This document shows, piece after piece, positions 2,539 to 12,801 of a DNA stretch of 64,000 nt. Under the pieces are notes generated by a model. That model searched no databases, was not told the DNA's origin, and saw nothing but the letters and a program-made list of their open reading frames with translations. The DNA is taken from positions 1-64,000 of the forward strand of contig JAJDBF010000011.1 in assembly GCA_029261535.1 (NCBI GenBank). The letters are read 5' to 3'. Position numbers and translations under genes: made by a program. Within the stretch, counting starts at the first letter, position 1. Each line of letters begins with the position of its first letter. The stretch comes from Nitrospinaceae bacterium (GTDB lineage Bacteria; Nitrospinota; Nitrospinia; Nitrospinales; Nitrospinaceae).

Positions 2539-4230
2539 TCATTTTATCATCTCTTTGGCGTGTTCCAACGTGGCTTTGGTGATTTTTTCTCCGCCGGACA
2601 TGCGGGCGATTTCTTCAACGCGTTGATCGTAGCTCAATTCCTGTATGGTCGAATGCGTTCTTTTGCCTTCGACTGCTTTGTGGACGCGAAAATGAGTTTT
2701 ACCCAACCCGGCTATTTGCGGCAGATGGGTGATGCAGAACACTTGCCGGTCCTGCGAGATTTTTTTAAGTTTGGCTCCGACTTTTTCCGCCACCTTGCCG
2801 CTGATACCCGCGTCCACTTCATCGAACACCATCACCGGTACCCGACTCTGCTTTTGTAGGATAGACTTCAGAGCGAGCATGACCCGGCTGATTTCTCCGC
2901 CCGAGGCAATTTTCGCCAGCGGCTTGGGCGACTCTCCAGGGTTGGGCGAGAACATGAACTCGAGCGTGCCCAGCCCGGTCGGGGTCAGGCGTACCGGTTT
3001 TTTTCTGAACTCAACGAAACTGCCAGCGTCGCTCGGGTAATCGAAGCGAACCTCAAACACGACATTTTTCATTTCCAGATCCTTGAGTTCTTTTTCCGCG
3101 CCCTTTTTGAGTTTGACGCTGGCGTGCTCCCGTTCTTCGGCTAGCTTGCAGGCGATGTTGGCCAGCACAGTTTCCGCCTGCTCCAATTCTTTTTTGAGAT
3201 CGCCGACCTGTTCTTCCGACAGGCACAAGCCGTCGAGTTCTTCACCAATGGTGGTGCGGTATTCTAGGATAGTCGGAATGTCGCTACCGTATTTGCGTTT
3301 GAGTCCATTGATCTCCGCCAGCCGGTCTTCAATTTCTTCCAGGTGCTCGGGATTGAACTCGATGTTTTTCAAATAGTCCCGCACCTCTTCGGCGAGGGCT
3401 TCCGTTTCGAAGAAGGCGTTGTTGCTACGCTCTTCCAGGCTGGACAGTTGCGGATCAATTTCCGGCAGGGGTTCGAGATCGCGGCGCACCTGCCCCAGAG
3501 TCTCCAGAACGGAACCGGGAGTGTCGGACAAGGCGTTCAGGGCCTGCTCCATCGCGCGGTGGAGAGTTTCGGCGTGGCGCAGTTTGTTTTTCTCGACTTG
3601 CTGAGTCTCTTCTTCATCGGGGAGGAGCCCGGCGGAATCAATTTCCTTGATCTGAAACGCCAGCAGGTCCTGCCGTTGCAGGCGGTCGCTTTGGTTTTTT
3701 TCGATCTGACGCAGTTTGCGTGCCAGTTCCTGGTGGGCATGATAGGCCTGATCAAACTGACTGCGGGTTTTATCGAGGCCACCAAAGCGGTCGAGCAATT
3801 CAACGTGGGTTTCGGAATGAAACAGCGATTGGTGATCGTGTTGACCATGGATGTCGACCAGTCGCCGACCCAGTTCCGCCAGTTGCGAAACGGTGATGGA
3901 GATGCCATTCAGGAACACGCGGTTCTTGTCTTTTTGCGACAGCACGCGCCGGACGATCCATCTGCCTTCCTCGGCTTCAATGCCGAGGGCCTGTGCCCAC
4001 GCCGTTATTTCCGGATCGTCAATTTTGAACACCGCTTCCACCGTGGCGGAGTCCTTGCCGGTGCGGATGCTGTCTGTATCGGCGCGACCCCCGACGACCA
4101 GATTGAGCGCACCGATGATGATCGATTTGCCGGCTCCGGTTTCACCCGTCAGCACATTGAGGCCAGGGTGAAACCGGACTTCGAGTTTGTCGATAATGGC
4201 AAAATGTTGGATGCGGATTTCTTCGAGCAT
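2539..4230 (-). CDS. recN: DNA repair protein RecN
   Basis: 563 residues, SMC-like ATPase that acts at double-strand breaks during recombinational repair in the cytoplasm. Visible parts are an N-terminal MLEEIRIQHFAIIDKLEV, Walker A GETGAGKS (about residues 29-36), a long central coiled coil (about 150-370), an LASGGEISRVMLALK signature and Walker B MVFDEVDAGISG near the C-terminus. Length matches the family. It starts 5 nt after the end of the upstream TPR/TatT-like gene, so the two are probably co-transcribed. Confidence 0.95.
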   Translation of the reverse strand: MLEEIRIQHFAIIDKLEVRFHPGLNVLTGETGAGKSIIIGALNLVVGGRADTDSIRTGKDSATVEAVFKIDDPEITAWAQALGIEAEEGRWIVRRVLSQKDKNRVFLNGISITVSQLAELGRRLVDIHGQHDHQSLFHSETHVELLDRFGGLDKTRSQFDQAYHAHQELARKLRQIEKNQSDRLQRQDLLAFQIKEIDSAGLLPDEEETQQVEKNKLRHAETLHRAMEQALNALSDTPGSVLETLGQVRRDLEPLPEIDPQLSSLEERSNNAFFETEALAEEVRDYLKNIEFNPEHLEEIEDRLAEINGLKRKYGSDIPTILEYRTTIGEELDGLCLSEEQVGDLKKELEQAETVLANIACKLAEEREHASVKLKKGAEKELKDLEMKNVVFEVRFDYPSDAGSFVEFRKKPVRLTPTGLGTLEFMFSPNPGESPKPLAKIASGGEISRVMLALKSILQKQSRVPVMVFDEVDAGISGKVAEKVGAKLKKISQDRQVFCITHLPQIAGLGKTHFRVHKAVEGKRTHSTIQELSYDQRVEEIARMSGGEKITKATLEHAKEMIK

Positions 4231-4235
4231 CGGGG

Positions 4236-4988
4236 TCAGGGGGAGCTGGTTTCTTCCTGGATTTCCTGGATGAGTTTTTGTGCTTGTTCGCGGTCAGCCA
4301 TAATTTTTGGCTCGTCGGTACGTGAACGGGTGACTCGCATTAACCGGAACAGCAGGGGACGGGCTTTCAGGTAGCGGTCGTCTTCCATATACGCTTCGCT
4401 GAGGAACAGCAGGTTCTCCCAGTTTTCCGGATCATAAGTCATGGCTTTTTCCAGGTTCTTGATGGCATCTTTCAGACTGCCTCCCAGCAGGCCGGGGAGT
4501 TCGAAATAAAATCGTCCGAGGGCGCGATAGGGTCCGCCGCCGTCGAGACTGGGGTACAGTTCCACGGCGCGCTTCATGTTGGATTCAAAATCATCCAGCA
4601 TCCTGAGGCTGGACCAAATGCCATTCAATTCACCGCGCTTGCCGAGACAAAGAGCTTTCATAAAATAGGCCGCGCCTGCCTTGGGGTTACGGCGAATCGC
4701 CGCATCGGCGTAGTCGATGCATTTTACGTACTCGGTATCCTGAAATTTCTCGTTAACTTTTCCGGCAATTTTGTAGTGGATATGCGAGAGCTGGCAGTAA
4801 GATTTTATGTCTTCTGGAGATTGTTTGATCACCTGCAAAAACTGGTTTTTGTGGTCTTGCAAAGCGACCAGGCTGGATTTACCCTGATAAAGATTGCATA
4901 ACATGGCCTCGGCAGTTGCGGGAGTTGTCAGGAAAAGGGTCCCGAAACCGACCAACAGGAGTAAGTTTGTGTGGAAGGACAGTCGCAT
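4236..4988 (-). CDS. TPR protein resembling the TatT (TRAP T-component) family
   Basis: 250 residues from the ATG at 4988. An in-frame extension to 5054 lacks a good start, and the signal peptide (MRLSFHTNLLLLVGFGTLFL..) begins exactly here. The mature part is helical with TPR-like repeats. The stretch FYFELPGLLGGSLKDAIKNL followed by AMTYDPEN resembles TatT, a periplasmic TPR protein associated with some TRAP transporters. No TRAP transporter gene is nearby, so the functional link is untested. It lies immediately upstream of recN in the same operon. Confidence 0.7.
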   Translation of the reverse strand: MRLSFHTNLLLLVGFGTLFLTTPATAEAMLCNLYQGKSSLVALQDHKNQFLQVIKQSPEDIKSYCQLSHIHYKIAGKVNEKFQDTEYVKCIDYADAAIRRNPKAGAAYFMKALCLGKRGELNGIWSSLRMLDDFESNMKRAVELYPSLDGGGPYRALGRFYFELPGLLGGSLKDAIKNLEKAMTYDPENWENLLFLSEAYMEDDRYLKARPLLFRLMRVTRSRTDEPKIMADREQAQKLIQEIQEETSSP

Positions 4989-5792: not shown

Positions 5793-8147
5793 TTATTTAG
5801 AAGTCATCTGGAATACGCCGTCCCAGTCCTCTGGCAGGGCGCGGGATTTGTCTTCAGCCCGCCGTGCGATTTTGGGTGTCGAGTTGAATTCACTGCAACG
5901 GTCGATGAATGTCTGGGCCGGTCGATCCCCCGGAATGAGGTCGATCACCTGTTGAAAATTGTCGAGTGCCCTCTCCCATTCCATTTTTCTGTAATTGGCG
6001 AGTCCTTCGCTGAATAGAGAAATCCCCTTCATAAAATTTGAATCGAGCGAACCCTTTTCACCCAGCACTTCATAGATGGCGACAGGCTCGGCTTTGCCCA
6101 CCACGCGGATGAGATCAAGCTCGCGGCATACGAGATGATCCTTGATGTCTTCGTAGGTGAATTGGCTGACCATGATGTCGGTGCCGTACACCTTGTTGAC
6201 GCCTTCCAGCCTTGACGCGAGATTCACCGAATCCCCCATGATGGTGTAATCCATGCGATTGGAGGAGCCCATGTTGCCGACGACCATGCGTCCGGTGTTG
6301 AGGCCGATGCGCACGGTGAGTTCATCGCGATTTTCTTCGCGCCATTTTATGCGCATGTCTGCAAGTGTCGATTGCATATCGAGGGAAGCGCGGCAGGCCA
6401 GTAGCGCGTGGTCCGGCCTTGTGATCGGTGCGCCCCAGAACGCGATGATGGCATCGCCTTCATATTTGTCGATGATGCCTTCATAACGTTCGATGATGCC
6501 TTCCATGGCTGACAGGTATTCGTTGAGTAGTTCGACCAGTTGTTGCGGCGTGAGGTGTTCGGAGATACCGGAAAAGCCCGCGACATCGGAAAAAAACGCC
6601 GTCATGCGCCTCTGGTCGCCGCCCAGCTTGAGCAGATTCGGATCGTCCACCAGTCGCTTGACCACGGTGGGTGACAGGTACTGACCAAACGCTCCGCGGA
6701 TGAATTGTTTCTGTTTACTTTCGCGAAAATAATTGACCGCAGTCATGGAGAGATACACCATGACAATTTCAAACGAGGGGTAAACCAGGTTCAGCAGATA
6801 ACCTCTGTCGATGAACTGGTATTCAACAAAATGTCCGGCGACCTGGTTGATGAGCGGTGAGCCCATGAAGAACTGCAGGTTGATAAAGTAGTAACCAGCA
6901 AGGAACCCCAGCATCAGGAAGAATCCGCCCACCGCCCGGAGCCGGGCCAGCAGGGGGGTGAGGAGGATGCCAAGCAATAGAATGACGGCAAAGGTAAAAG
7001 TTTTGCCCCAGGGAGGTGGCTCCAGAAAGTTTCTCTGGATGATGTTGTCGATGATGGTGGCATTGATCTCGACCCCCGGATACACGCGCTCAAAGGGCGT
7101 GGCGCGCAAATCAAAAATGCCCTTGCCGGTGGCACCGATGAGTACGATCTTGCTGTCGATGTCATCCGGCGAAACCTTGCCTTCCAGAAAATCTGAAATG
7201 GGGTAATGCTTAAAAGTCTGCGCCCCACCATAATAATTGACGAGAAATCTTCCACGACTGTCTACTGGGATTTTGAGGTCCCCCGCAGTAATTTTCAGGA
7301 CCCCGTTCTCATCGTCGAAAAATTTTGGATTGGGTTTTTCGAGATAATTGGCGATCATGTGCAACCAGAACGGCGCGTAATAGTGGTCGCCCGATTTCAG
7401 GATCAGCGGATAGTGGCGCATGATGCCATCGTCATCTGGACTCAAGTTGAAATAGCCTGCCTGATAGGCCGCCTTGGCAAACATGGGGAGGTTACCTTCC
7501 ACTGCCGGGCGAGACATCTCCGTGTTAATTTTTTCCAGGCCCTGGGGATTGTTGACTTCATAATCCTTGTAACTGAAACGCTCAACATTCTTTAGTCCCT
7601 CTTCAATCTGTTCCTTTGAGAGATGCTGGATGTCTACAGGGTCGTGGAAGAGCATACCCAGCACGACGTTGCCATGGTTCTTGATTGATTCGGCAAACAG
7701 TTCGTCACCGGTTTTCTGGTTCTCAAAGTTTTTTCGCAGATCGGCTGAGGCTTCGAGGCTCAGTCCACCTTCCTTCACTTGCTGATCAATCAGGCGGACC
7801 GCCTGGTTATAAATATCGTCTCCACTCTCAGAGAACACCATATCAAACCCGATGGTGAAGGCGTTGTACTCGGTGAGCTTGTTGATCAGCTTGGCTATGG
7901 TGGAGCGAGGCCACGGCCATCGACCGAGAGTGTCCTGACTTTTTTCATCGACCACCGCGATAACAACTTCCGGTCCGGGTTTCAAGGGGCCGCGCGTTTT
8001 GAAACGCAGGTCGATCATCTGTAACTCAAGGATTTCCAATGCGTATGGTTTGGTGTAGACCAGTGAGCACATCAGCAGGGTGATGAGCAGTCCCACTTTG
8101 GCGGGAGTCAGTTCCAAAAAACTTTGCAATCGTTCGGGAATTTGCAT
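5793..8147 (-). CDS. CHASE2-domain class III adenylate cyclase
   Basis: 784 residues. Order: N-terminal membrane helix (about 17-35), extracytoplasmic CHASE2 sensor (about 40-365), three transmembrane helices (about 370-460), class III nucleotide cyclase domain (about 505-690) and a TPR-like tail. The metal-binding aspartates are present in FFSDVAGFS and KYEGDAIIAFWG. Base-recognition positions are Lys (DKYEGD) and Thr (YTIMGDSVN), the pair seen in cyanobacterial CyaC-type adenylate cyclases. It would make cAMP in response to an unknown periplasmic signal. It diverges from the FecR-domain gene at 8323, a common genomic partner of CHASE2 cyclases. Confidence 0.92.
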   Translation of the reverse strand: MQIPERLQSFLELTPAKVGLLITLLMCSLVYTKPYALEILELQMIDLRFKTRGPLKPGPEVVIAVVDEKSQDTLGRWPWPRSTIAKLINKLTEYNAFTIGFDMVFSESGDDIYNQAVRLIDQQVKEGGLSLEASADLRKNFENQKTGDELFAESIKNHGNVVLGMLFHDPVDIQHLSKEQIEEGLKNVERFSYKDYEVNNPQGLEKINTEMSRPAVEGNLPMFAKAAYQAGYFNLSPDDDGIMRHYPLILKSGDHYYAPFWLHMIANYLEKPNPKFFDDENGVLKITAGDLKIPVDSRGRFLVNYYGGAQTFKHYPISDFLEGKVSPDDIDSKIVLIGATGKGIFDLRATPFERVYPGVEINATIIDNIIQRNFLEPPPWGKTFTFAVILLLGILLTPLLARLRAVGGFFLMLGFLAGYYFINLQFFMGSPLINQVAGHFVEYQFIDRGYLLNLVYPSFEIVMVYLSMTAVNYFRESKQKQFIRGAFGQYLSPTVVKRLVDDPNLLKLGGDQRRMTAFFSDVAGFSGISEHLTPQQLVELLNEYLSAMEGIIERYEGIIDKYEGDAIIAFWGAPITRPDHALLACRASLDMQSTLADMRIKWREENRDELTVRIGLNTGRMVVGNMGSSNRMDYTIMGDSVNLASRLEGVNKVYGTDIMVSQFTYEDIKDHLVCRELDLIRVVGKAEPVAIYEVLGEKGSLDSNFMKGISLFSEGLANYRKMEWERALDNFQQVIDLIPGDRPAQTFIDRCSEFNSTPKIARRAEDKSRALPEDWDGVFQMTSK

Positions 8148-8322
8148 AGTCTAGTAAAGAGAGTTGGAATTCAGAGGCCGAAAAAATTGTATTCAAGGGC
8201 CTGCTGGAAATTGCCGTTCAGTAAATTGAGTGTGGAACATCCGCACCCTGCGGCGCGAATAACTCGAAGGGCACTGTAGAGATTATTAGCTCAAATTGAT
8301 TAACCATTCAACCGTTGAAATT
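8148..8322. promoter_or_regulatory. divergent intergenic region between the CHASE2 cyclase and fecR-like genes
   Basis: 175 bp between two divergent starts, so promoters for both genes should lie here. No sigma-70 pair was convincing by eye. Confidence 0.4.
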
Positions 8323-9072
8323 ATGAGACCCTATTCTAAAGCAATCCGCAACCGGTTTTGGTCACTCGCTGTATTTCCTTTTCTCGTGCTGAGTTTTTTC
8401 CTGATTCAGGAAGGAGCCGCGTTCGCGCAGAAGGTCGCTACCCTGAGTAAAGTTCAGGGGAATGTGCGTATTTTTGAATCGGGTTCCAATCGGGGCAAAA
8501 AAGGCCGCGATGGCATGGCTCTTTTTGTTCAGTCCAGAATTCAGGCCATAGGTGCCAATTCCAGAGCGGATATCATTTATATCAGAGGCGACGTGGTGCG
8601 TGTCATGCCGGATTCCGATGTCACGTTGGGGGATACTCTTCTTGAGGAAAAGAAGAGCGTGACGAAGATAAAACTGGCCGCCGGGAAAATTTTCAACGTG
8701 GTGAACAAGCTCACCGAGGGGTCGGTCTATGAAGTGCAGACGCGGACCGCCACGGCGGGTGTCAAGGGCACCACCTGGTCGGCAGAGACCAGTGCCCGGA
8801 GCGACACGTTTATGGTTAAAGAAGGTACTGTGGAAGTCGATGCCGCGCAGAAAAAGGTGCTGGTCGCTGACTTGAAAAAGAGCACGGTGCAGGGAGGCCA
8901 GGCTCCGGGCGCGCCGCAGGATTTATCACCTGAAGAAATCGCGATGTTTGATATCCTCGATGACCTTCGGGAGTCGATCAAAACGGATATCAAGGAAGAG
9001 GTGATGGAATCGATCAAGGAAGACATCATCCAGGACGCCATTGAAAGCGATATGGGCATGGACATGCACTAG
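8323..9072 (+). CDS. secreted FecR-domain protein
   Basis: 249 residues from ATG 8323; an upstream extension to 8296 is less likely because the signal peptide begins at MRPYSKAIRNRF. After a cleavage site near AFAQ comes a FecR-type beta domain (about 40-180): VRIFESGSN, RADIIYIRGDVVRVMPDSDV, ATAGVKGTTW and VKEGTVEVDA. The last 40 residues form an acidic amphipathic repeat (IKTDIKEEVMESIKEDIIQD). Unlike true FecR it has no anti-sigma region and is not next to a sigma factor. It lies divergent to the CHASE2 cyclase and upstream of a strong terminator. Confidence 0.85.
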   Translation: MRPYSKAIRNRFWSLAVFPFLVLSFFLIQEGAAFAQKVATLSKVQGNVRIFESGSNRGKKGRDGMALFVQSRIQAIGANSRADIIYIRGDVVRVMPDSDVTLGDTLLEEKKSVTKIKLAAGKIFNVVNKLTEGSVYEVQTRTATAGVKGTTWSAETSARSDTFMVKEGTVEVDAAQKKVLVADLKKSTVQGGQAPGAPQDLSPEEIAMFDILDDLRESIKTDIKEEVMESIKEDIIQDAIESDMGMDMH

Positions 9073-9101: not shown

Positions 9102-9145
9102 AAAAGGCCCGTCGCCCTCCAAGGAGGGCACGGGCCTTTTTCTTT
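9102..9145. terminator. rho-independent terminator after the fecR-like gene
   Basis: Stem AAAGGCCCGT..ACGGGCCTTT with an inner GCCCTCC/GGAGGGC pair, followed by T-rich TTTTCTTTTT. It lies between convergent genes ending at 9072 (+) and 9194 (-) and has A-rich sequence on the other side, so it may work in both directions. Confidence 0.9.
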
Positions 9146-9193: not shown

Positions 9194-9760
9194 TTAAAGT
9201 CCGATGACATCGAACACGGCAATGCCGCTACTCGCGGCTAACATCTGGTTGCCTGTTGTGGTTCCCAGCGAGGTAAAGGCTCCGCCTGAGTTGATGGTAA
9301 CGTTAAAGTCGCAGGCAATTACAGAAAGGCACTTAACCACTAGCTTAAAGATCACGCCTCGAAAAATATTGATATTCCGGGTGACGCTGGCACCATCCAG
9401 TCCACTGACCAGAACAGGGCCGGAAATTCCGGCACCGATATCTGCCGGAAAAATGACCTGGAGGTTATTGCCTGCGGGGGCACCAAGCTCCGCTATGGTA
9501 AAAGAAATATTGCCGCTGGCGGAGTTCAGGATTTGAATGTCTTCGCGCAATTGTTCATTAACAGACCGCATCTGGCTTCGTTTGAAATCTTCCTTGCCAC
9601 CAAACTGGAAATCAGAATCCAACTCCTCCATGACCGAATCGATATCGTCACCCCAATCGGCCAGAGCTTCGCGGTAGGGTAAGGTCCCCGCCATGCCGAA
9701 GGTCATGGAAAGGGCCAGCAGGCCGGTAATCAGTTTGCGTTTAAATGTCCGTGTTTTCAT
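9194..9760 (-). CDS. small secreted protein, 'FGGK' paralogue 1
   Basis: 188 residues with a signal peptide (cleavage near REALAD). It is one of four consecutive paralogues sharing a ~40-residue module right after the signal peptide, here DDIDSVMEELDSDFQFGGKE and then VNEQLREDIQI. The remaining 120 residues look beta-rich and contain one CLSVIAC cysteine pair where the other paralogues also have a close pair. It is the last and most divergent member of the operon headed by the barrel protein at 12730. I recognise no family and cannot assign a function. Confidence 0.8.
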   Translation of the reverse strand: MKTRTFKRKLITGLLALSMTFGMAGTLPYREALADWGDDIDSVMEELDSDFQFGGKEDFKRSQMRSVNEQLREDIQILNSASGNISFTIAELGAPAGNNLQVIFPADIGAGISGPVLVSGLDGASVTRNINIFRGVIFKLVVKCLSVIACDFNVTINSGGAFTSLGTTTGNQMLAASSGIAVFDVIGL

Positions 9761-9773
9761 TATTCACCTTTTC

Positions 9774-10421
9774 TTACATCGCGTTACTTGGAGGGGGTGT
9801 TGGGATCGGTCTGGCAGGCGCAGAGTTGTCTGCGCTGACTTTAAACTGGAAGGTTGCCATATTACCAACCCCGAGGAATGGTGGCACGTTTCCTGTATCT
9901 GCCAGTTGAGATGGAATGAAGATAGCCCCCTTGATAATAAAAATATAAAACTCACATCCCCCAAACATAACACCCTGGCATGTGACTTTAAGCGTGTGGG
10001 TGGAATTGGGCTCCAACTGTATGGATCCTGTAGTCGTTGTCCCATTGACCATGGAGGCGATAGTGCCTTGGCCAACAACTTCCACGAGGATACTTTCGGT
10101 ATCAATGTCGTATTCTTTGATAAAAAACTCGACATCCACGAGCCCCGGTGTGGTGGACCGGGTAATGGAATTGTCTTCGCGCAGGGCTTCGTTGGTATTG
10201 GAAAGGTTTTTTTGTTTGATGTCTTCCTTGCCACCAAATACAAAATCCCGATCGAGCCCACCAATGACATCGTCAATGTCCTGAGCATAAGCAGGAACGA
10301 CAAACAGGAGCAATCCTGTGAGGAAAGTTAATGTCAGGAATTGAATGAGCCCAACCCATTTAAAACGGCGGGGAGGAGTTTGCCATGAAGGCGGGAAAGC
10401 GCGCATCTTTTTTTGTAACAT
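9774..10421 (-). CDS. small secreted protein, 'FGGK' paralogue 2
   Basis: 215 residues from ATG 10421; the frame stays open to a TTG at 10442, and another ATG at 10406 is possible. A hydrophobic signal segment ends in VVPAYAQ. The shared module follows: DIDDVIGGLDRDFVFGGKED, then NEALRED. The C-terminal domain is beta-rich with a CQGVMFGGC hairpin and a proline-rich end (ARPIPTPPP). It sits 13 nt upstream of paralogue 1. Function unknown. Confidence 0.8.
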   Translation of the reverse strand: MLQKKMRAFPPSWQTPPRRFKWVGLIQFLTLTFLTGLLLFVVPAYAQDIDDVIGGLDRDFVFGGKEDIKQKNLSNTNEALREDNSITRSTTPGLVDVEFFIKEYDIDTESILVEVVGQGTIASMVNGTTTTGSIQLEPNSTHTLKVTCQGVMFGGCEFYIFIIKGAIFIPSQLADTGNVPPFLGVGNMATFQFKVSADNSAPARPIPTPPPSNAM

Positions 10422-10483
10422 TTGTTTTGGTTCAGCTATCAACCTGAGAAAAAAGAAAAATAATTTTTTTATTCAGGGGATGC

Positions 10484-11050
10484 CTAGGTTGAACAGGTGG
10501 CCATAAAATTCTGGGTGGAACCAAACGCAAAGGGTCCGGTAGTGACGAGAGGACAAGTGACGCCACCTCCTACCGAGAAACTCACATTGCAGTTCGGGCT
10601 GGTGTTACAAGTCAGGCTCAGAAATAACGGAGTATTGGTCAATCCGGGGTTAATCGCTGTCACGATGGTTCCGCCAACAACTCCAGCACCCATTACATTT
10701 ATGATTTCACCAACGGGAATGGTAACTATTCCATCCGAAATAGAGTCGAGCGTAATATTACTGGGATTAATGATCGCATTGTAGGTAATAATAACATTAG
10801 CAGTCGGGGCCGCTGCGTCCAACATGGCCTTTTCCTCAATCTTGATGTCTTCACGGTTTTGTTCATTAGCGGCTGCAATATTGTTCCGTTTGATTTCCTG
10901 TTTACCGCCGAAGCTAAAATCCTGCTCAAGGCCGTCGATGGCATCATCGATATCCTGGGCGGGCAGTTGAGAAGGAAGAACGGTGAGGACAGCCCACAGG
11001 GCGATCAGCAGACAACTAACAAGAGACAGCTTCGTGTTTGAAAACTTCAT
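10484..11050 (-). CDS. small secreted protein, 'FGGK' paralogue 3
   Basis: 188 residues from ATG 11050; an in-frame TTG at 11065 gives a slightly longer form. The signal peptide ends near SQLPAQ. The shared module reads DIDDAIDGLEQDFSFGGKQE, then ANEQNREDIKIEE, nearly the same as paralogue 4. The C-terminal part is rich in Asn, Thr, Ile and Val, predicted beta, with a CNTSPNC pair and two further cysteines near the end. Function unknown. Confidence 0.8.
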   Translation of the reverse strand: MKFSNTKLSLVSCLLIALWAVLTVLPSQLPAQDIDDAIDGLEQDFSFGGKQEIKRNNIAAANEQNREDIKIEEKAMLDAAAPTANVIITYNAIINPSNITLDSISDGIVTIPVGEIINVMGAGVVGGTIVTAINPGLTNTPLFLSLTCNTSPNCNVSFSVGGGVTCPLVTTGPFAFGSTQNFMATCST

Positions 11051-11158
11051 AGAATTATTTTTCAATTGGGTGAGAAATTATTTTAATAAATTGGGGAGGC
11101 TAAAGTGAGAGATCCGGGCATTCAAACCTTCAAATACATTTCCCCTGGACCATCCAGT

Positions 11159-11731
11159 TTAGGAAGTTGTACAAGTGCTTGGTCCTGCTAACACAGTGTT
11201 AGGTGCCATAAACATCCCGGTGGAGATGGTGGTGCAATTGATGTTAACGCCATTGATTACACCGCTCAGGGATGCAGAGACTTCACAATTGCCCGTCAGG
11301 CAGGTCACACTGACAAAGAGTGGGAAGGTTAGCCCAGCTTGAAGATTGGCTGAAGGAAACAGAAAAGTTGCTGTCTCCGTTCCCATACCAGTGACCACTT
11401 CTGCTTCATTGATATTGATTTGCTGGCCCAGAACAGAGATAAAGTTAGTGCGGATATGACTCGTTACCATAGCCGAATAAGTTATCGTAAGGAGTTGGCC
11501 AGCGGCTACACCTTCCTCAATCTTGATGTCTTCCCGGTTTTGCTCGTTGGCCGTGTCCAGATTGCCCCGTTTGATTTCTTCTTTACCGCCGAAACTGAAA
11601 TCCTGTTCGAGGCCGCCGATCGCATCGTCAATGTCAACAGCCGGAAGTTGCGCTGGAATAATCAGGGCAAGAGCTAATACCAAAGCGAATAAAACGCGAA
11701 CTACAGTTGATTTTTTATTCAATGATTTCAT
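11159..11731 (-). CDS. small secreted protein, 'FGGK' paralogue 4
   Basis: 190 residues; the signal peptide is followed immediately by DIDDAIGGLEQDFSFGGKEE and ANEQNREDIKIEEG. The C-terminal domain is beta-rich with a CLTGNC pair and two more cysteines, one close to the terminus. It starts 33 nt downstream of the outer-membrane barrel gene, so it is the first of the four paralogues in the operon. Function unknown. Confidence 0.82.
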   Translation of the reverse strand: MKSLNKKSTVVRVLFALVLALALIIPAQLPAVDIDDAIGGLEQDFSFGGKEEIKRGNLDTANEQNREDIKIEEGVAAGQLLTITYSAMVTSHIRTNFISVLGQQININEAEVVTGMGTETATFLFPSANLQAGLTFPLFVSVTCLTGNCEVSASLSGVINGVNINCTTISTGMFMAPNTVLAGPSTCTTS

Positions 11732-11764
11732 TATCCGACTTTCAGGTTTTTTTGTGAGAGACGA

Positions 11765-12730
11765 TTAGAATCGGGCTTCGACACCACCCATGAACCGATT
11801 GCTGTGGTAGTCACGCACCAGGAAATTCGATTCATTGTTCTGGTGGTGAAAATCAATTCTAGCGGTCACCTTGTTCAGCATACCTAGAGTGTCCCACAGT
11901 ACCTTGCGGAAGCGGAAACGGAAGTTGTGTTGTTCATCGTCACGAATCGAACCTACGGTGGTTGCGGCAAACGTGTCGTACGTGCGGAAAGAGAACTTAT
12001 ATTCGCCGTTGACCTCGATATCCATGGGGAGCATCAAACGTCCCAATACCTTGAAGTCATGAACTGTCCGGTCAAAACGCCCGGTAGTGTCTTCGTCTGA
12101 AATCTGATAGCCCGCGCCAATATAGTTTCTGCTGTCGGGAATCAGGTAAATGTGGGTGATCCCACCGCCATGCTGGTCGCCGTCACGCGCCTGATTCACA
12201 AAATTGTCGGTGTTCTTGTAGAAATAATGAACACGGGTCAGGCCGAATTTCTTGTGCAAGTGGTTGAAGCTGGGATTGAGGTAGTTAATACCGCTGAAAT
12301 CATTGCCCCCGGCAATATTTCGAATATAGAAATACTGCATGTCAACAAACATGCTTTCACTAAACTTGTACTTGGGCTTGATTCCCCCCATAAAGGAAAT
12401 CAAGTCAAACTGTCCCAAATCAGAATAAATGGTGGCATCGACATCAACATCTCCCGCGAGACTGATTTTGTTGTTAAATTTGTGCGTGTAGTTAAACCCC
12501 GCACTGCCGTTCCAACCACTGTCGGAGTCAGGTGAAGCCAGAACCGGCGGTGTGTCCGGGTTCTGCGCTACGTTATCATCGTGGAGAAATTGGGATTTCA
12601 ACTGAAGCTTCCAGGTTTTTCCTCCCTTGTTGACAGAAACCTGTCCCAAAACCTGAGACGGCAGGAGAAGAAAAGCAATTGCTAGAACTAAAAGGTAATA
12701 CGGGCCGGAGGTGAGCTTCTTTTTGCGCAT
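11765..12730 (-). CDS. outer-membrane beta-barrel protein
   Basis: 321 residues with a signal peptide (cleavage near VLGQ). Alternating hydrophobic/polar strands run throughout (GSAGFNYTHKFNNKISLAGD, RFRFRKVLWDTLGMLNKVTA, RIDFHHQNNE), and it ends in an aromatic residue (..MGGVEARF). All of this is typical of an outer-membrane barrel. It is the first gene of the operon containing the four FGGK paralogues and may be their export, anchoring or surface partner; this is inferred only from order. No named family is recognised. Confidence 0.8.
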   Translation of the reverse strand: MRKKKLTSGPYYLLVLAIAFLLLPSQVLGQVSVNKGGKTWKLQLKSQFLHDDNVAQNPDTPPVLASPDSDSGWNGSAGFNYTHKFNNKISLAGDVDVDATIYSDLGQFDLISFMGGIKPKYKFSESMFVDMQYFYIRNIAGGNDFSGINYLNPSFNHLHKKFGLTRVHYFYKNTDNFVNQARDGDQHGGGITHIYLIPDSRNYIGAGYQISDEDTTGRFDRTVHDFKVLGRLMLPMDIEVNGEYKFSFRTYDTFAATTVGSIRDDEQHNFRFRFRKVLWDTLGMLNKVTARIDFHHQNNESNFLVRDYHSNRFMGGVEARF

Positions 12731-12773: not shown

Positions 12774-12801
12774 ATTGTCCAAATATAAGACGATAAGTCA
12801 A
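12774..12801 (-). promoter_or_regulatory. candidate sigma-70 promoter of the barrel/FGGK operon
   Basis: On the minus strand TTGACT (12801-12796), 16-nt spacer, GACAAT (12779-12774), about 45 nt upstream of the barrel start. The -35 matches consensus at 5 of 6 positions, the -10 at 4 of 6. Confidence 0.45.

Follow-up and report, generated by a model that had tools for sequence, protein, structure and literature searches.

An operon of an outer-membrane barrel and four secreted proteins

What does an outer-membrane barrel do when its gene lies next to genes for four related secreted proteins of no known family? The question is raised by positions 9194 to 12730 of a 64,000-nucleotide stretch (hereafter the window) of contig JAJDBF010000011.1, from a Nitrospinaceae bacterium of the phylum Nitrospinota and a relative of marine nitrite-oxidisers. 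Five open reading frames follow one another on the minus strand, separated by gaps of 33, 93, 41 and 13 bp, and likely form an operon of one barrel gene and four genes for secreted paralogs (partners 1 to 4), as the original prediction from the sequence had described. The barrel belongs to a known kind, the Slam/DUF560 type, and its comparison with relatives elsewhere in the order, likewise paired with helix-bearing secreted proteins, suggests an undescribed variant of known surface-export machinery that lacks the tetratricopeptide repeat (TPR) domain. The genes and the module shared by the partners, named FGGK after its central motif, are:

11765 to 12730, minus strand: TPR-less SlipAM/DUF560-type outer-membrane beta-barrel, 321 amino acids (Pfam: PF04575; AlphaFold2 model)
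11159 to 11731, minus strand: secreted partner 1, 190 amino acids, with signal peptide, FGGK helix module and type A Cys beta-domain
10484 to 11065, minus strand: secreted partner 2 with type A domain, 193 amino acids counted from TTG
9774 to 10442, minus strand: secreted partner 3 with type B domain, 222 amino acids counted from TTG
9194 to 9760, minus strand: secreted partner 4 with divergent type A-like domain, 188 amino acids
11516 to 11635, minus strand: FGGK helix module of partner 1 (DIDDAIGGLEQDFSFGGK...NEQNREDIKI)
10835 to 10954, minus strand: FGGK helix module of partner 2
10164 to 10280, minus strand: FGGK helix module of partner 3
9530 to 9646, minus strand: FGGK helix module of partner 4, variant DIDSVMEELDSDFQFGGK

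Translation of partners 2 and 3 probably starts at internal ATG codons, at about 11050 and 10421 respectively, rather than at TTG.

The barrel matches SlipAM/DUF560 with E=5e-13 over residues 40-314, nearly the whole profile, and scores 49.7 bits against a gathering cut-off of 22. Its AlphaFold2 model predicts 14 strands (predicted local distance difference test score, pLDDT, 82; predicted template modelling score 0.73). Neither the Pfam search nor the model gave a TPR domain in the 321 residues, and the barrel strands start at residue 38. No solved structure was found for any sequence relative of the barrel, and searches found it neither on plasmids nor in viral contigs.

The four partners align along their length and share, directly after the signal peptide, a module with the core D-I-D-[DS]-x-[IM]-x-x-L-x-x-D-F-x-F-G-G-K-x-x-x-K...N-E-x-x-R-E-D, of which partner 4 carries the variant DIDSVMEELDSDF. 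In pairwise comparisons of 19 family members, identity averages 62% in the module as against 24% in the signal-peptide part and 22% in the C-terminal part, so conservation of the module goes far beyond chance. This bears out the common N-terminal module that had been proposed, and the CxnC hairpin (n = 4-7) reported with it is indeed present in all four partners. The number of cysteines after the signal peptide is even in 19 of 19 members, in keeping with disulfides. In the AlphaFold2 model of partner 2 (pLDDT 70), a signal helix is followed by helices 40-46 and 55-84 across the module and then by eight strands.

The system had been described as belonging to no recognised family, which holds for the secreted proteins but not for the barrel. 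The four partners have no match in Pfam, NCBIfam or the PDB, and Pfam gives none in the 19 members, so the idea that the module is an already named domain was rejected. A fold search with the model of a secreted protein returned nothing significant; a remote resemblance to the TbpBBD / lipoprotein C barrel is conceivable.

Related TPR-less barrels and their partners

A profile of the barrel found 17 members in 11 genomes with E<1e-117, together with a second, weaker group that mostly carries TPR domains. SlipAM is matched by 13 of the 17, namely the window barrel and 12 of its 16 relatives. All 17 TPR-less barrels have a gene for a secreted protein on the same strand at a distance of 2-82 bp, and at 16 of them an adjoining secreted protein contains a helix of about 40 residues that ends in E-D/E-x-x-I/L. 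The partners are of these types:

FGGK proteins: 3 loci
Coiled-coil proteins of about 355 amino acids with a Cys beta-domain, or a coil protein of 218 amino acids: 3 loci
Helix proteins of 99 amino acids: 2 loci
Proteins with the helix and an LSGTY domain, encoded upstream of the barrel: 2 loci
Proteins of 132 amino acids: 2 loci
Short proteins of about 100-200 amino acids: 4 loci
Lipase-class protein: 1 locus

At two loci of the coil type (L061 and L067) the gene of a smaller helical protein adjoins the barrel first and the gene of the coil protein comes next. In the barrel tree, where 12 of the 14 inner branches are starred, the partner type tracks the barrel clade with high support, and in the coil clade the pairing persists in genomes of three taxonomic families. 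Most often a barrel has a single partner gene; the FGGK genus has two to four and L061 up to three.

A charged helix shared by the partners

The charged helix immediately precedes the C-terminal domain or, in the short proteins, lies close to their end, and it finishes in E-[DENT]-x-x-[IL] or a close variant such as NREDIKI, NTEDIAI, ITEDIII, LAEEQVI, TENVLI or LEDIIQ. We built helix profiles with one partner group left out each time. The segments were picked by hand around the pattern, so the E-values are supportive rather than proof of common descent, and two runs with slightly different inputs gave slightly different values. Held-out LSGTY partners were recovered at 5.6e-7 and 3e-4, TEDIII partners at 1.3e-3 and 2.2e-3, the 132-residue partners at 0.004 and 0.095, and short partners at 0.04-0.1 with a fourth at 0.9. 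Recovery of the coil group was partial (0.02 and 0.2, the rest poor), and the lipase partner was not recovered. Reversed-sequence decoys reached 0.5 at best.

A model built without any FGGK protein retrieves FGGK proteins. Among the window modules, partner 2 was found at 2.2e-5, the best value, partner 1 at 0.00085 and partner 3 at 0.0049, while partner 4 was not retrieved at E<=5. In a search of the whole genome G000, every hit of this model at E<=0.1 was a barrel partner, an FGGK protein or the FecR tail described below. Judged from these sequence comparisons, the FGGK module is the form that a more widespread partner helix takes in this lineage. The hydrophobic moments of most helices were no higher than those of shuffled sequences, and amphipathicity as their common property was dropped.

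C-terminal domains are also shared between partners of different barrels. The profile of the type A domain of FGGK proteins finds three proteins of L061 (3.5e-8 to 9.7e-7) and one of L067 (0.001), and the type C domains of unlinked FGGK proteins match partners of C26-type barrels (1.4e-4 and 2.6e-3), which points to domains being reshuffled behind the helices of different barrels. The proposal of a common handle with variable C-terminal domains can thus be refined. The handle is helical and tied to the barrel, since it can be recognised as one element in the partners of divergent barrels and the type of partner goes with the clade of the barrel; the C-terminal domains fall into a few families, some of which recur behind other barrels.

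The lipase class 3-like secreted protein (L070:4969-6138, genome G046) is encoded directly after its TPR-less barrel and has a Cys-bearing C-terminal domain that is weakly type A-like. It was set aside as a clear helix carrier for want of statistical support (rank 103).

Distribution of the FGGK proteins

Running the FGGK profile over 77 genomes of the phylum Nitrospinota, as had been suggested for finding further members, gave 19 intact copies in three genomes, all of the window's genus (seven each in G000 and G002, five in G001). A widespread module was therefore rejected. All three genomes carry the barrel, and no FGGK protein was found among the 77 in a genome without it, in agreement with the expectation that module and barrel occur together. 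The order of the locus is also kept in the three genomes: rimO, the barrel gene, two to four FGGK genes, fecR and a CHASE2 cyclase gene. The full profile found a single intact protein outside the family (C31, in the operon of another barrel in G000, E=5.9e-13). A match in G046 at E=0.006 was a 455-residue protein without the module and disappeared with a better profile. The named public match is one contig of the metagenome-assembled genome Nitrospina sp. HKST-UBA01, probably the same contig as in G001. G002 additionally has a decayed FGGK gene (L113, about 3900-4400; G002:C1:701063), in which the damage splits the module between frames.

Comparison with known systems

According to the literature, Slams translocate cargo and their DUF560 barrel has 14 strands (PMC5449769, PMC9090332). 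They consist of a TPR domain and the barrel, and a survey that lists 832 Slams found all of them with TPR and none with DUF560 only (PMC5449769). The window system resembles Slams and the type 11 secretion system (T11SS) in its SlipAM-family outer-membrane barrel, here predicted to have 14 strands, in the genes for secreted proteins next door and in the signal peptidase I-type signal peptides of the partners (read by eye), as in soluble T11SS cargo. It differs in that the barrel has no N-terminal periplasmic TPR domain, in that it occurs in Nitrospinota whereas the published surveys consulted concern Proteobacteria, and in that known cargo is read via a C-terminal 8-strand barrel (TbpBBD / lipoprotein C) while the partners here share the helix instead. 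A survey of 2025 describes a T11SS cluster in which the neighbours seldom carry a C-terminal barrel domain, and suggests that targeting domains not yet recognised exist (PMC12282271).

The second Nitrospinota SlipAM group (L095-L112) is of the same barrel family, and genes for FecR-domain proteins, CHASE2 cyclases or cyclic-nucleotide-binding proteins adjoin many of its loci. It differs in having TPR in 16 of 18 cases (by inspection of the translations), and its neighbours are often FecR proteins whose tails are long and of low complexity; partner helix and C-terminal domain are absent at all 18 loci. In L107, TPR and SlipAM are combined in 475 residues.

The barrel as a candidate surface-export unit

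The pairing by clade together with the shared helix argues for barrel and partner working together. Since barrels of the SlipAM family are known to translocate proteins, the likeliest function is export or surface display of the helix-tagged proteins. We give about even credence to a T11SS-like unit for surface export or display that has no TPR, in which the partner helix would dock either cargo or an accessory subunit to the barrel. The 14-strand SlipAM barrel would be placed in the outer membrane, and the four partners would cross the inner membrane by Sec, using their signal peptides. The charged helix of about 40 residues, of which FGGK would be the genus-specific version, would bind the barrel and so bring the partners to it. 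The barrel would then pass the C-terminal beta-domain, with its disulfides, to the cell surface or anchor it there, and FGGK proteins encoded elsewhere would use the same barrel in trans. Export and surface location of the partners are here inferred by analogy with the known translocons. The original prediction of a new secretion or surface-assembly system is therefore kept in part: the kind of barrel is not wholly new, and what stands is a TPR-less variant with helix partners.

Several observations weigh against this export or display unit, and some of them favour other explanations. Neither sequence nor fold search detected a TbpBBD / lipoprotein C domain in the partners. The short SlipAM proteins L098 and L099 of the second group have neither TPR nor helix, and the rule that lack of TPR always goes with the helix was dropped. 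In several lineages (L062, L064, L068, L069, L071, L073 and L074) the partner has 97-132 residues and ends soon after the helix, of which it is barely more; this is odd for cargo and suits an accessory subunit. The helix proteins might accordingly be a fixed subunit, such as a plug, gate or periplasmic adaptor, that replaces the Slam TPR in trans and in the FGGK genus was duplicated and fused to beta-domains. That a single partner gene per barrel is the most frequent arrangement, and that the helix occurs in this TPR-less clade and at 0 of 18 loci of the mostly TPR-bearing group, agrees with such a subunit. Cargo is suggested instead by the many unlinked copies and by the several divergent partners that one barrel can have (two to four in the FGGK genus, as many as three in L061), and the lipase-class partner of L070 resembles an effector. 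We regard the fixed subunit as somewhat unlikely, yet as a serious rival.

Other points against protein export lead towards polysaccharide. The model of EpsL (TIGR03014), a predicted outer-membrane protein of exosortase/PEP-CTERM exopolysaccharide clusters, matches 8 of the 17 barrels weakly (best E=1.9e-6), Wzy_C O-antigen ligase genes lie close to 5 of the 17 (L062:8238-9953, L064:8196-10004, L069:4729-6831, L073:5322-7133 and L074:5400-7250), and PF04575 also takes in some PgaA homologs (PMC8406197). With the CHASE2 cyclase and FecR neighbours, this would fit an EpsL/PgaA-type polysaccharide-export porin with partners as matrix or gating proteins, in an exopolysaccharide system under cyclic-nucleotide control. 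However, the window barrel reaches 16 bits with EpsL, far below the curated cut-off of 275, whereas its SlipAM score exceeds the cut-off, and the constant neighbour here is a small helix protein. We saw no Wzy_C gene at the window locus, nor next to most of the barrels, and noticed neither a polysaccharide synthase nor an outer-membrane polysaccharide export (OPX) gene in the loci; no exosortase / PEP-CTERM signature was noticed in the neighbourhoods, for which no dedicated search was made. The Wzy_C proteins may be ligases or polymerases, or else protein O-oligosaccharyltransferases with the partners as substrates, and we consider a polysaccharide porin unlikely. It is very improbable, finally, that a generic porin and a lineage-specific periplasmic family are co-transcribed by chance without a functional link. 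About half of the FGGK genes lie away from the barrel (10 of 19 elsewhere without a barrel, nine in the barrel operon), which also counts against the export unit, and Foldseek matches the barrel model to ordinary porins, CymA and OmpG among them; but the pairing is kept across 17 barrels, 11 genomes and several families, partner type tracks clade, and helix and C-terminal domains are common to the partners of divergent barrels.

Work on Slams and T11SS has so far concerned proteobacterial barrels with attached TPR and cargo read via a C-terminal barrel. A TPR-less, non-proteobacterial clade with helix partners provides a specific candidate for a further element of targeting or gating, and gives a means of asking what the TPR domain does. 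Otherwise unannotated marine Nitrospinota proteins also gain a hypothesis of function.

Neighbouring genes and further observations

The following features flank the operon in the window:

8296 to 9072, plus strand: FecR-domain secreted protein, convergent neighbour kept at the locus (Pfam FecR, E=4.8e-10)
5793 to 8147, minus strand: CHASE2-adenylate/guanylate cyclase, conserved neighbour of fecR (Pfam CHASE2 1.6e-59, Guanylate_cyc 5e-23)
9102 to 9141, both strands: two-way terminator-like hairpin between partner 4 and fecR
12774 to 12801, minus strand: weak promoter-like match 5' of the barrel gene; the number of such matches is at chance level

The order of cyclase and fecR is the same in L023, L027, L069, L073 and L074, and FecR and CHASE2 or cyclic-nucleotide-binding genes adjoin SlipAM genes of both groups. 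The C-terminal helix of the window FecR protein, ESIKTDIKEEVMESIKEDIIQ, resembles the partner helix (helix model E=0.001, genome-wide 0.035). The model also matches the C-terminal tail SDLK[ED]QIRQDVREQIAEDI[IL] of a TPR lipoprotein, which among 61 genomes was found only in the three with FGGK, at these positions:

L114:3946-4845, minus strand: TPR lipoprotein gene
L115:4863-5537, plus strand: TPR lipoprotein gene
L119:1498-2109, minus strand: TPR lipoprotein gene

Both matches are weak (E 0.001-0.2), and the co-occurrence of the lipoprotein with FGGK may reflect the genus alone. From its sequence, the lipoprotein could supply TPR in trans. It is conceivable, if rather improbable, that a split Slam-like machine exists, in which one short helix serves as common docking tag and FGGK, coiled-coil and other cargo, the FecR sensor beside the CHASE2 cyclase and the TPR lipoprotein with the missing TPR would meet at the TPR-less barrel, so that export would be coupled to cyclic-nucleotide signalling.

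The FecR protein also matches the NCBIfam models of the leptospiral surface adhesins Lsa33 (2e-17), LipL45 and Lsa19, all below their cut-offs. In the second SlipAM group, TPR-bearing SlipAM genes stand beside genes of FecR-domain proteins in L096, L100, L102, L103, L106, L107, L111 and L112, with FecR confirmed by Pfam in L096, L103, L107 and L111. Several of these FecR-domain proteins have long Ala/Lys/Ser/Gly-rich repeat tails, and cyclic-nucleotide-binding, GGDEF/EAL or CHASE2 cyclase genes are adjacent. A few kb from the barrel operon of G002 (L023:2625-4033), an open reading frame for a GIY-YIG-like protein of 94 amino acids is present in three copies 562 bp apart, whose first 60 residues are identical.

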